Shown piece after piece: positions 1-49,792 of a DNA stretch of 49,792 nt. Positions within the stretch are counted from its first letter, which is position 1, and every line of letters begins with the position of its first letter. Source of the DNA: Prevotellaceae bacterium (GTDB lineage: Bacteria; Bacteroidota; Bacteroidia; Bacteroidales; Bacteroidaceae); NCBI GenBank assembly GCA_022508665.1, contig JAFLUT010000007.1, forward strand, positions 1-49,792, given 5' to 3'. The notes below the pieces were generated by a model. The model saw nothing but the letters and a program-made list of their open reading frames with translations, was not told where the DNA came from and did not search any database. The translations under genes were made by a program, and so were the position numbers.

Positions 1-79
1 TATAATTTGTCACGGCTGACTATTGTAATCGTGAACGGCAGGGCATTTCAGAGGTGCGCTGTTGTTGTTTTGAATATAA
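1..79 (+). repeat. Dispersed repeat, copy 1 (left contig end)
   Basis: The first ~54 bases (core from ttgtcacggctgac to tttcagagg) match the sequence at 36224 and the reverse complement of the last 58 bases of the window with only a few mismatches. Similarity to the 36.2-kb copy fades over the next ~25 bases. The core contains the short inverted repeat TCACG...CGTGA. It can be read as a short open frame (LSRLTIVIVNG...FQR), but I treat it as a repeat and not as a gene. Confidence 0.85.
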
Positions 80-4841: not shown

Positions 4842-4927
4842 CGATACACCGTTTATCGGCAAATCGATGCAAGGTGCAGCGATGAGTCGATAAACGGTGT
4901 ATCGGTTTGGTGATAAACGGTGTTAAC
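4842..4927. repeat. 17-bp perfect inverted repeat plus third half-site
   Basis: CGATACACCGTTTATCG at 4842-4858 is the exact reverse complement of 4888-4904. A third partial copy, GATAAACGGTGTTA at ~4912-4925, runs into the uvrA stop codon. There is no T-tract on either side, so it is not a standard intrinsic terminator. It lies between the 3' end of uvrA and the promoter of the M64 gene. Confidence 0.8.
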
Positions 4928-14086: not shown

Positions 14087-14210
14087 ACCAGATGTTTGTT
14101 GTTTTGTTCTGCTATTGATGTTTGAACCTCCTAAACTCCACAAAGTTTAATTGACCCACATCGTCTTTAACAAACTTTAATCATTCTTATGCCTATTATG
14201 TAAAAAGAAA

Positions 14211-14605
14211 GCAGACGGACTATAAGCCGGGTTCTGTTCGTCTCCACCAAGGATACGAGTCTGTCATTTATCTACTCCATGAGTCGCCCCATGGCTCAAG
14301 CGTTCTACCCTCTACCGAACTGTCGGGCGGGCTACCCTAATGGCGGTAGTTTACATGAACTTGCAGCTCCCAAGATGCACAGCCAACGTGTCGCCACGCC
14401 GCTGGTAGGCTCTTACCCTACCTTCTCACCATTTCAATCCATAATGGACTGTTGTTATTTTCTTCTGCATTGCTCAACCCTCACGGACTGCTTCTACATT
14501 AGGAAGTGGGATGCCCTGTGCTGCCCGGACTTTCCTCTTGTCACCGCATAATACCCATTATAAAAATATATGCAACGACCAGCGACAGGCTGTCCGACTG
14601 CTTTC
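14211..14605 (-). ncRNA. rnpB: RNase P RNA, bacterial class A
   Basis: Read on the minus strand, the 5' end is agtcggacaggctgtcgctg, which forms P2 with the 3' region, and the 3' end carries the family hallmark gaacccggcttatagtccg. Internal conserved blocks of RNase P RNA (for example the gaggaaagtccgggca-type segment near 14530) are present. The length, ~395 nt, is normal. It cleaves 5' leaders from pre-tRNA. The ends are estimated to within ~10 nt. Confidence 0.95.
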
Positions 14606-36060: not shown

Positions 36061-36197
36061 CTTTACCCAAGTAAAGGATTTGTGTTATTAAAGGTAAAGA
36101 TTGCTCAACAAGGGTGATAGCCTTTTGTTCAATTTGTAATCAACCGTTGGCTTCATTAGTAGGTAGCCCTCCACTCAACTAGTAGGTAGCCGTTGGC
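36061..36197. repeat. Short repeats in the intergenic region
   Basis: CTTTAC at 36061-36066 pairs with GTAAAG at 36071-36076. TAGTAGGTAGCC occurs at 36157-36168 and again at 36180-36191 (period 23), and CCGTTGGC at 36144-36151 and 36190-36197 brackets them. No gene is visible between 36001 and 36460. Confidence 0.6.
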
Positions 36198-36223
36198 ATA
36201 TATAAGTTGCATTCGCTGACTAT

Positions 36224-36303
36224 TATAATTTGTCACGGCTGACGATTGTAATCGTGAACGGCTGGGAGTTTCAGAGGGGTGCCGTTGTCGTTTTGTATAA
36301 AAA
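36224..36303 (+). repeat. Dispersed repeat, copy 2
   Basis: From tataatttgtcacggctgac to tttcagagg it matches the window start with four substitutions, and similarity continues weakly to ~36303 (gttgtcgttttg). A partial duplicate of its first 15 bases (gctgactattataat) lies immediately upstream at ~36216. Confidence 0.85.
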
Positions 36304-36306
36304 ATA

Positions 36307-36332
36307 CGCTCTTCCGTATTGTGCGAAGAGCG
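36307..36332. terminator. Hairpin downstream of the repeat, possible terminator
   Basis: CGCTCTTC (36307-36314) pairs with GAAGAGCG (36325-36332) around a 10-nt loop. There is an A-rich stretch on its left, which is a T-tract on the minus strand, so it could end the leftward operon finishing at 36461. Confidence 0.5.
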
Positions 36333-36404: not shown

Positions 36405-36473
36405 AAAAGCAGAGTATGAACTTTATGAAAAGTAGAGTCTGAACTCTATGAAAAGCAGGGTTAGAACTCTATG
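36405..36473. repeat. Three 23-bp tandem repeats overlapping a gene end
   Basis: Units start at 36405, 36428 and 36451 (consensus aaaagcagagtctgaactctatg). The third unit covers the stop codon and last codons of the hydrolase gene at 36461, so the array looks like repeated duplication of that gene's 3' end. Confidence 0.85.
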
Positions 36474-37345
36474 ACTTCTCCGTCGTATGCCAAATGTATG
36501 CCTTTGGGAAGCGACTGCTCCTCGATGGCATGAGGGCTTATGTGGTGGCTCATGTGGATAAGCCACGTGTCTTTTACGCCGAGCGAGCGTGAGAAGTCGA
36601 TTGCCTCCTCAATCGTTTGATGAGTGGGGTGTGGAATGTGGCGAAGACCATTGACAATGAGGTAATCAATGCCTTGAAGATAAGTAAGTTCGGTGTCGGG
36701 GATAGTCTTCATGTCGGTGATGTATGCAAAGTTGTCGATGCGGAAACCGACAATAGGGAGTTTCCCGTGCATGACACGTATGGGGATGACTTCGATGTCT
36801 CTGTGGCTTTCGTTGTTTCCTTGGGATTTAAGCCTTTGTATTTCTTCACACACTTGCTGGCGTTTCATCTTTATAGCATCCTCCAAATACTCTGATGCCA
36901 TTGGCTCTTTCTCTTCGTCTGTGATGATGATAGGCTTGTGAGGCTCAATCTCAATGAGGTTGAGTGCTGGCACGCCGGGGTAGCGCTTGTCCTTAGGTGT
37001 GAAACAATAAGGAATGCGCTCCACAAGGTGGTCGGCACAGAATTTCTCGGCATAGACGTTCACGTCGCCGAAGATGCTGTAAGGGCGGAGGTCGTCAAGC
37101 CCACCCACATGGTCGTAGTGTTCGTGAGTGATGAAGACGGCGTCGAGTGGCTTGAAATCGACGCTCAACATCTGCTGGCGGAAGTCAGGGCTGCAATCTA
37201 TGAGCAGGTTCTTTCCTCCCACTTCGACAAGGGCGGAACACCGCAGACGCTTGTCTTTTGGGTCAGCAGAGGTGCATGTTTGACATGGACAGCCGATTTG
37301 TGGCACTCCGCATGATGTTCCGCTTCCAAGTATGGTTATCTTCAT
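36461..37345 (-). CDS. Metallo-beta-lactamase-fold hydrolase (PhnP-like)
   Basis: 294 aa. The metal motif THEHYDHVGG has H74, H76, D78 and H79; further ligands VMHG and THQ follow. The N-terminal Cys-rich loop GCPCQTC (18-24) occurs in PhnP-like phosphodiesterases. An insertion of ~45 charged residues at ~145-190 (EKEPMASEY...NNESHRD) is not in the E. coli protein. The biochemical role (cyclic phosphodiester cleavage or other) is unproven. It is the last gene of the lipoprotein-murB run, 15 nt after murB. Confidence 0.85.
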   Translation of the reverse strand: MKITILGSGTSCGVPQIGCPCQTCTSADPKDKRLRCSALVEVGGKNLLIDCSPDFRQQMLSVDFKPLDAVFITHEHYDHVGGLDDLRPYSIFGDVNVYAEKFCADHLVERIPYCFTPKDKRYPGVPALNLIEIEPHKPIIITDEEKEPMASEYLEDAIKMKRQQVCEEIQRLKSQGNNESHRDIEVIPIRVMHGKLPIVGFRIDNFAYITDMKTIPDTELTYLQGIDYLIVNGLRHIPHPTHQTIEEAIDFSRSLGVKDTWLIHMSHHISPHAIEEQSLPKGIHLAYDGEVIEF

Positions 37346-46931: not shown

Positions 46932-47573
46932 CTATTTCCGCAAAATTCGTGTAATTGACTGTACCGTAGAGGGATTTACCTTGTGTCTTTCCGCTAACGC
47001 CCTCACGCTATAAAGTTTACCCTTTACGCCCTTTGCTTTTTCTCGTAAGTCTGCAACCAAGGCAGGATAATCTTTCTCATATTCTTTAATTGTTTTACGA
47101 TACCCGACTTTTCTGCCAACTTTACCTCCATTAGCACGAAAATAGGTGTACCCAGAACGCATACGCTCTCTTATATTGCCACGCTCTAACTCTGCACATA
47201 CCGCTAACGTGGAAAGCATAACGAGGAAAAAGGGATTTTCTTTACCATCTGAAAAAATGCTGATATTCTCCTTTTTGAAAAAAACATTGACACCCTGCTC
47301 TTTCAATTCAAGAACTGTTTTCAAGAGTTCGCCTGCATTCCTGCCAAGTCTTGACAGTTCCCAAGAAACGATGGTTGCTTGCTCTTTGATGGCACAGTCT
47401 ATGGCGTTTGAAAGCATTGGGCGGTCTGCCACCTTTTTTGCTCCACTTATTTTTTCAGCATAACTGCCTACTATCTCATATTTGCCAACTGCCCAATCCT
47501 CCAACTCTTTAACTTGACGGTCGAAATCTTGTGTATGTGTTGAAACTCTACAATATAAAACTGCTTTTTCCAT
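46932..47573 (-). CDS. Serine recombinase (resolvase/invertase family)
   Basis: 213 aa. The N-terminal resolvase domain has YCRVST with catalytic S11, then SWELSRLGRNAGELL, and the C-terminal ~45 residues form a helix-turn-helix (YSVRALAERHKVNPSTVQS). This is the size of small resolvases and invertases. It could resolve cointegrates or invert a nearby segment. It has its own strong promoter at 47602-47632 and is flanked by 20-bp direct repeats. It faces the recombinase pseudogene. Confidence 0.92.
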   Translation of the reverse strand: MEKAVLYCRVSTHTQDFDRQVKELEDWAVGKYEIVGSYAEKISGAKKVADRPMLSNAIDCAIKEQATIVSWELSRLGRNAGELLKTVLELKEQGVNVFFKKENISIFSDGKENPFFLVMLSTLAVCAELERGNIRERMRSGYTYFRANGGKVGRKVGYRKTIKEYEKDYPALVADLREKAKGVKGKLYSVRALAERHKVNPSTVQSITRILRK

Positions 47574-49734: not shown

Positions 49735-49792
49735 CGGCGGCTGACCTCTGAAACTCCCTGCCGTTCACGATTACAATAGTCAGCCGTGACAA
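49735..49792 (-). repeat. Dispersed repeat, copy 3 (right contig end, inverted)
   Basis: Read on the minus strand it starts ttgtcacggctgactattg and matches the left-end copy almost exactly up to tttcagagg. After that the sequences differ, with a new GTCAGCCG that is inverted relative to the repeat's own CGGCTGAC. The window ends inside the repeat. Confidence 0.88.

Follow-up and report, generated by a model that had tools for sequence, protein, structure and literature searches.

Intergenic mosaic repeats such as REP/BIME and BOX are short, modular, bound to a species, and present in many copies, and they are not known to have a 23-nt register. Porphyromonas gingivalis, the host of a repeat named BrickBuilt, belongs to the Bacteroidales, the same order as the Prevotellaceae bacterium that is the subject of this study. 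As described in the available passages of its source, BrickBuilt is a MITE made of a 23-nt tandem repeat with a leader and a tail; it has 19 intergenic copies with IS5-type ends and is found in one species plus P. gulae, and its units are imperfect between copies and vary in number (PMC4596501). For the ISPg3-type MITEs (MITE239 and MITE700), table 2 of the same source lists ACGTCAGTTCGA as the end sequence of ISPg3. The passages available of a second study define constant-size, variable-sequence tandem repeats, in which units of 20-23 nt occur in individual species of many groups, a single unit length is shared by many unrelated sequences, the families are species-specific, and the describers report "no obvious function" (Subirana and Messeguer, PMC8161180). 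A term search of those passages found no Bacteroidales named.

Here we analyze a window of 49,792 nucleotides (contig JAFLUT010000007.1 of assembly GCA_022508665.1) that holds three copies of a dispersed repeat in which diverged 23-nt units surround a nearly invariant core. Literature searches, in which subscription papers are poorly covered, yielded no description of this repeat or of 23-nt arrays in Prevotellaceae.

Copies of the Repeat in the Window

The original prediction placed one core at the left end of the contig, at 36224, and inverted at the right end, and the core was confirmed at each of them: a 33-mer core pattern, with one position left free, matches with zero mismatches at 7-39 (+), 36230-36262 (+), and 49760-49792 (-), and nowhere in 100 shuffles of the window. 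A longer stretch is shared between 1-83 and 36224-36306 at 88% identity, and the inverted right end shares it too. The first 79 positions had been presented as the repeat; they do belong to it, but they are the right-hand half of an element of which the window has a single full copy (table 1), and both window ends hold only this half because the contig was cut inside the element. In most copies the core dyad reads ATTATAAT..GTCA-CGGC-TGAC..ATTGTAAT, and CGTGAACGGC comes next.

Table 1. Features of the window and loci of two further repeats mentioned in the text
Feature	Position or locus	Strand	Basis or remark
Repeat, right-hand half, truncated by left contig end	1..79	+	Pattern match, self-comparison
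Full 162-nt module of seven 23-nt units, sole complete copy in the window	about 36151..36312	+	Row L027
Nearly invariant core of the complete copy	36222..36262	+	Imperfect dyad, then CGTGAACGGC
Repeat, right-hand half, inverted, truncated by right contig end	49718..49792	-	Pattern match, self-comparison
Separate array of three 23-nt units	36405..36473	-	First unit contains the last codons and stop of gene 36461-37345
Unrelated intergenic inverted/tandem repeat	4842..4923	.	Two copies 23 nt apart at 4889-4923
Repeat with AACGTsAGTTCGA ends, examples	L203 (G000:C1:40590), L209 (G000:C99:16992), L232 (G000:C95:51931)		
GGTsTGAsTCAsACC repeat, G016 loci	L184, L186-L188, L190, L191		

A CotH-domain gene and a metallo-beta-lactamase-fold gene flank the complete copy. 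The closest named relatives of the protein beside it, at 82% identity or less, are metagenome-assembled genomes of Prevotellaceae, Bacteroidaceae, and Bacteroidales, several of which come from rumen samples by their titles. Elsewhere the window encodes a serine recombinase with a Resolvase domain (46932-47573, about 2 kb from the right contig end), to the right of which are two ORFs that have no Pfam match, and a Bacterial RNase P class A RNA on the minus strand (14207-14601).

Copy Number, Genomic Position, and Taxonomic Range

The source genome comprises 2,673,002 bases in 149 contigs, contig 117 being the window. Allowing up to three mismatches, a 31-mer core pattern matches 70 places in this genome, 52 of them with zero mismatches; 39 share one strand, the remaining 31 lie on the opposite one, and the reversed pattern, used as a control, has no match. 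A second block, left of the core, is found at 88 places, 44 on each strand, again with a control of zero. Because a broken copy appears as two halves, we counted distinct flanks in the fetched stretches, which gave 82 left and 66 right flanks (83 and 67 before one false positive on each side was dropped). These false positives, the left match L170 and one right match in L086, both lie inside an ORF and were removed from the flank profile and the linkage counts, while L170 was retained among the 82 left rows of the ORF-overlap measurement. The copies are intergenic: of the 82 left and 63 right flanks measured (145 in all), 4 extend more than 30 nt into a predicted ORF of at least 100 amino acids, one of them being L170. 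Counting copies and comparing flanks had been suggested as the check on a repeat family, and the number of distinct flanks together with their intergenic position bears that idea out. On this evidence it is beyond doubt that this is a real dispersed repeat; it has about 80 intergenic sites in its own genome.

A second expectation, that a high-copy genomic repeat halted the assembly, is likewise supported. By a hand count of places, the element occurs in the first 130 bases of at least 58 of the 149 contigs; 24 of these open with the right half, in a few cases together with part of the left, and another 34 with the left half reversed. The cuts are located at or close to the core, the part in which the copies resemble each other most. 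Because so many contigs start in the repeat and the cuts fall at its most uniform part, we conclude that the repeat stopped the assembly, and the practical consequence is that one repeat family is found at 39% of all contig starts in a draft genome.

When the 98-nt consensus was searched against 45 genomes of the genus, 399 of the family, and 118 of the phylum, a single genome matched in each set, and it was the source genome itself. A 30-nt core pattern with up to three mismatches matched 59 places in that genome, whereas the 44 remaining genus genomes had no match. No other species with the repeat was found among species genomes by exact 23-mer, in a set from which the source genome may itself be absent. 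The repeat had no match among plasmids and phages by blastn and was not found in viral contigs by exact 21-mer (the source genome is possibly absent from this set as well), and an origin from a phage or plasmid was rejected on these grounds. Among the genomes searched, the repeat thus appears to be restricted to one species.

Anatomy of the Element

Diverged 23-nt units, strung together around a core that hardly varies, make up the element, which has a rigid module of seven units and about 162 nt. The alignment of 17 complete copies is gap-free across 162 columns; these are the ones, out of 19 copies with both sides, whose left flank was long enough, each trimmed at set distances from the core, the two copies without left flank being left out and at least two other complete copies (C7 and C72) being cut by the fetched stretches. 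Self-identity of the consensus is highest at lag 23 (0.53) and second highest at lag 46 (0.43), the next value being 0.33. Left of the module, most copies carry further degenerate 23-nt units of the form AAAAGnnGACArCsGyTG. Allowing up to four substitutions, 79 of the 82 left flanks contain at least one such unit and some contain seven, compared with any unit in 20 of 410 shuffled flanks and in 11 of 82 reverse complements. The 171 unit spacings listed include 149 of 23 nt, 10 of 46, two of 22, and one of 24, and the last left unit stands 23 nt from the anchor in 60 copies and 46 nt in 19. The unit search and the spacing counts demonstrate that the 23-nt register is kept far better than the sequence of the units. 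The original prediction was right about the core repeat, but this register and the longer element lay beyond what it could see.

Most core positions are 94-100% conserved over the 82 left and 66 right flanks, and at certain nearby positions two or three letters are frequent. There is strong linkage among sites -7 to -1, and site 13 is linked to site 16 and to site -4. Site 20 (39 G, 39 T, and 4 A) shows no linkage to any other tested site at a level of 2 in 200 shuffles, nor does site -15. Conservation declines outward in both directions, over some 60 to 100 nt, and no sharp end is common to the copies; part of this fade is an effect of the varying number of units.

The 23-nt Period Elsewhere in the Window and in Sister Species

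Three unrelated 23-nt arrays were counted in the window. For sampled sister species we recorded the distances between identical 8-mers inside intergenic regions. The 23-nt period is seen in six of the seven species sampled in the genus: lag 23 is the commonest in the sample of the source genome and in those of G016 and G015, ranks third or fourth in G026, G007, and G043, and is not raised in G030, a small sample of 26 intergenic regions. When at least three identical 8-mer pairs at a given lag are taken to define an array region, lag-23 regions make up 26 of 150 in the source genome, a biased value as the sample was taken beside copies of the repeat, and 9 of 93 in G016, 7 of 78 in G015, 5 of 73 in G007, 3 of 59 in G026, 2 of 91 in G043, and 0 of 26 in G030. 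Other genera of the family, assigned by exclusion, had none in 41, 21, 34, 30, and 8 regions; lag 22 leads in G220 (5 of 34) and G150 (2 of 21), which belong to such genera by the same exclusion. Other families of the phylum gave 1 of 37 and then 0 of 29, 37, and 39, and Escherichia coli gave 0 of 20. Block-shuffled controls, one per sample, had at most one region at any lag, and G416, for which 4 kb was obtained, was excluded from the region count.

The period is not the leading one throughout. Lags 7 and 14 outnumber lag 23 in G026 and G043. At the loci of 80 named relatives, the closer 30 have lag 23 in 5 of 89 intergenic regions, where it is outnumbered by lags 7, 14, and 21, and the farther 50 have lag 22 in 5 of 137. 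Away from the main repeat, the sampled intergenic regions of the source genome have lag 23 in 3 of 104, with lag 24 also at 3, so that by this measure the genome is not crowded with other arrays. Intergenic repeats with a period of 7, 14, or 21 nt (such as AAAAGTG) were noted at L193-L202 in G026 and at L263-L272 in G043.

Arrays of unrelated units on a 23-nt grid are numerous in the G016 sample. This sample also contains a palindromic unit, GGTsTGAsTCAsACC, six of whose seven groups have a 23-nt spacing and one a spacing of 46. Genus-wide this palindromic repeat occurs in 17 of 45 genomes, the source genome included (e.g., G000:C64:8956), and the idea that it is specific to its species was rejected for that reason.

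An Array Born from a Gene End

One array of the window can be traced to its surroundings. The separate array in table 1 lies 93 nt beyond the complete copy and consists of three consecutive 23-nt units with identities of 19/23 and 20/23, and the 23 nt that follow the third unit match it at 3/23. Across the stop codon, the same comparison in 26 orthologues with a readable flank (L311, whose flank is masked, was excluded) gives at most 11/23. Because the units are alike here and so dissimilar across the stop in the orthologues, we conclude that local DNA was duplicated in 23-nt steps, and the duplication would most simply have taken place after the split from the sampled relatives. Among the orthologue flanks listed, four (L322, L323, L326, and L327) have their own prominent lag 23, at 32-37 of 46 positions, in unrelated sequences. 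When gene ends were surveyed, lag 23 was not in excess, with 1 of 311 ORF ends in the source genome and none in five sister samples, at a threshold that also misses the array described above. A possible second 23-nt duplication, at 17/20 positions, was noticed in L150 at the end of a putative ORF (position 589, strand as scanned). The birth of an array from local DNA is one clear case and not a rule.

Origin, Spread, and Possible Role of the Repeat

Our preferred explanation is that the repeat is a dispersed, species-restricted element of the minisatellite type, in which arrays arise by local 23-nt duplication and one array has spread. We hold it with moderate confidence because both the spread and the upkeep of the 23-nt step are steps that we infer rather than observe. 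Arrays would arise by tandem duplication of local DNA in 23-nt steps through a process of some kind. The spacing may then be kept as changes in length are selected against, most likely on behalf of a protein that binds the array. Ectopic gene conversion or mobilization in trans could then have carried copies of one array to about 80 intergenic sites, and the core of this array might be kept uniform by conversion or by selection. The 23-nt steps hint at a process or a protein that measures DNA in units of 23 letters, and a cellular use, if there is any, would at a first guess be a DNA-binding role of the nucleoid type. Several findings run against this explanation. A single array has been traced to local DNA, and the gene-end survey shows no excess at lag 23; the equality of lags 23 and 24 away from the main repeat, the lead of lags 7 and 14 in G026 and G043, and the lack of lag-23 regions in G030 point the same way. 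Local duplication leaves the spread to about 80 sites unexplained, and sites -7 to -1 are linked as in the subfamilies of a mobile element.

A stronger version, which we advance only tentatively and think rather improbable, is that a genus-wide molecular ruler duplicates exactly 23 nt of any intergenic DNA, so that unrelated arrays arise in place and one of them has spread to about 80 sites with a fixed core. If this is true, the end of the gene at 36461 is an example of an array arising in place on a 23-nt grid. With 45 species of the genus available, the period in six of the seven sampled, and an array forming from a gene end, the origin of such arrays can be tested by genome comparison.

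Alternatively, the repeat could be a MITE, that is, a non-autonomous transposon with imperfect terminal inverted repeats whose transposase is encoded elsewhere, lies in an assembly gap, or was lost, the 23-nt arrays being secondary as in BrickBuilt. We regard this as possible but doubtful. Dispersal on both strands, restriction to one species, and linked variant sites that resemble subfamilies are all consistent with it, as are the imperfect inverted edges of the consensus, CAAAAnnnGACAACGGCTGA ... TCAGCCGTTGTCnTTTTG, through which, for the most part, the consensus folds better than shuffled sequences (z of -2.31 and -3.47 as RNA on the two strands, -3.09 as DNA). These edges are, however, no better paired within copies than between them: pairing across the 17 copies is 74.0%, against 74.9% with partners shuffled. 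Sliding the edge stem by up to three columns lowers pairing to 27-59%, a drop that is expected because the stem was read from the consensus. The outward fade without a common sharp end also speaks against a transposon, if partly for reasons of unit number, and no target-site duplication is definable. An empty-site search by tblastn used the genes flanking 16 of 19 copies, the other three having no ORF on one side, and no sampled relative had both neighbors. Profile searches of the source genome, a draft assembly with gaps, covered two transposase families and found neither DDE_Tnp_1 (PF01609; found by the control in 9 of 14 genomes) nor Y1_Tnp (PF01797; found in 5 of 14), and an IS5-type transposase was rejected given the absence of PF01609. 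Finally, no two copies on one contig are closer than about 7.5 kb, and therefore none flanks a transposase gene; a composite transposon was rejected because of this spacing.

It is less probable still that the copies are best understood as functional protein-binding sites, with the core an operator-like or nucleoid-protein site under selection at about 80 places and the arrays its drifting remains. Such a site would account for a core of nearly fixed positions adjacent to others with two or three common letters, for the imperfect dyad, and for conservation that fades outward. On its own, however, it leaves unexplained both the 162 gap-free columns and how a single species came to have about 80 copies; none of the 44 other genus genomes has the core, and the candidate site has no known protein.

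A family of structured RNAs or transcription terminators seems very improbable. The consensus folds better than shuffles on both strands, and the right-hand gene is oriented toward the element at 42 of 63 sites (p 0.011), both of which speak for this reading; the left-hand gene is oriented away from it at 48 of 82 sites, L170 included (p 0.15). The short inverted repeat predicted for the core is present as TCACG...CGTGA, but as a hairpin it is weak (z -0.60). In the 17 copies, doubly changed pairs number 4, compared with 4.3 in shuffles, and the RNAalifold covariation term is -0.46. The covariance that had been proposed as a sign of a structured RNA is thus missing from the outer stem, and because the inner repeat also folds weakly, the idea of a structured RNA is not supported. 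Rfam has no family over the repeat in the window at the gathering level and none over the core of six copies at a loose threshold, and with the two transposase families searched in the genome no insertion sequence was found around the repeat. A REP/BIME element spread by a RAYT (IS200-like Y1) transposase would also be short, intergenic, partly palindromic, and present in tens of copies in one species, but it can be rejected almost outright because the source genome has no match to Y1_Tnp in a search whose control succeeded in 5 of 14 genomes.

Comparison with Known Repeats

Like REP/BIME and BOX, the main repeat is short, intergenic, modular, species-bound, and present in many copies; it differs from them in its 23-nt register, and no RAYT gene was found in its genome. 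A second small palindromic repeat of the source genome has the ends AACGTsAGTTCGA, which equal the end sequence given for ISPg3 in the available table of its source, and 46 such half-sites were found with up to two mismatches (reversed control, 3). This second repeat often adjoins copies of the main repeat. Ends of the type listed for the ISPg3-type MITEs belong to it, whereas the main repeat lacks them.

The closest named element, as far as the accessible description of BrickBuilt allows the comparison, is this 23-nt repeat of P. gingivalis. Both are intergenic and species-bound, occur in tens of copies, and consist of tandem units, precisely 23 nt long and without spacers, that differ imperfectly from copy to copy and vary in number. 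The likeness is one of description, as the BrickBuilt unit is published in that source as a logo and not as a sequence that could be compared. In contrast to the 19 copies of BrickBuilt, there are about 80 here, the units are far more diverged and partly in an inverted sense, a fixed core takes the place of leader and tail, and IS5-type ends (of the GAGACCTTTGCA type) are absent from the conserved profile of the 82 left and 66 right flanks.

The repeat probably belongs to the 23-nt constant-size class as outlined in the passages available of PMC8161180, whose authors' detection settings ask for at least four repeats. As in that class, one unit length is strictly kept (149 of 171 spacings are 23, and 17 copies are gap-free), and arrays of the same length and different sequence occur in the window, which has three, and in sister species. 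It departs from the class as those passages present it in that one array is dispersed with a nearly fixed core and in that the period of 23 is shared by several species of one genus. We file the repeat as a distinct form of the constant-size, variable-sequence tandem repeats.
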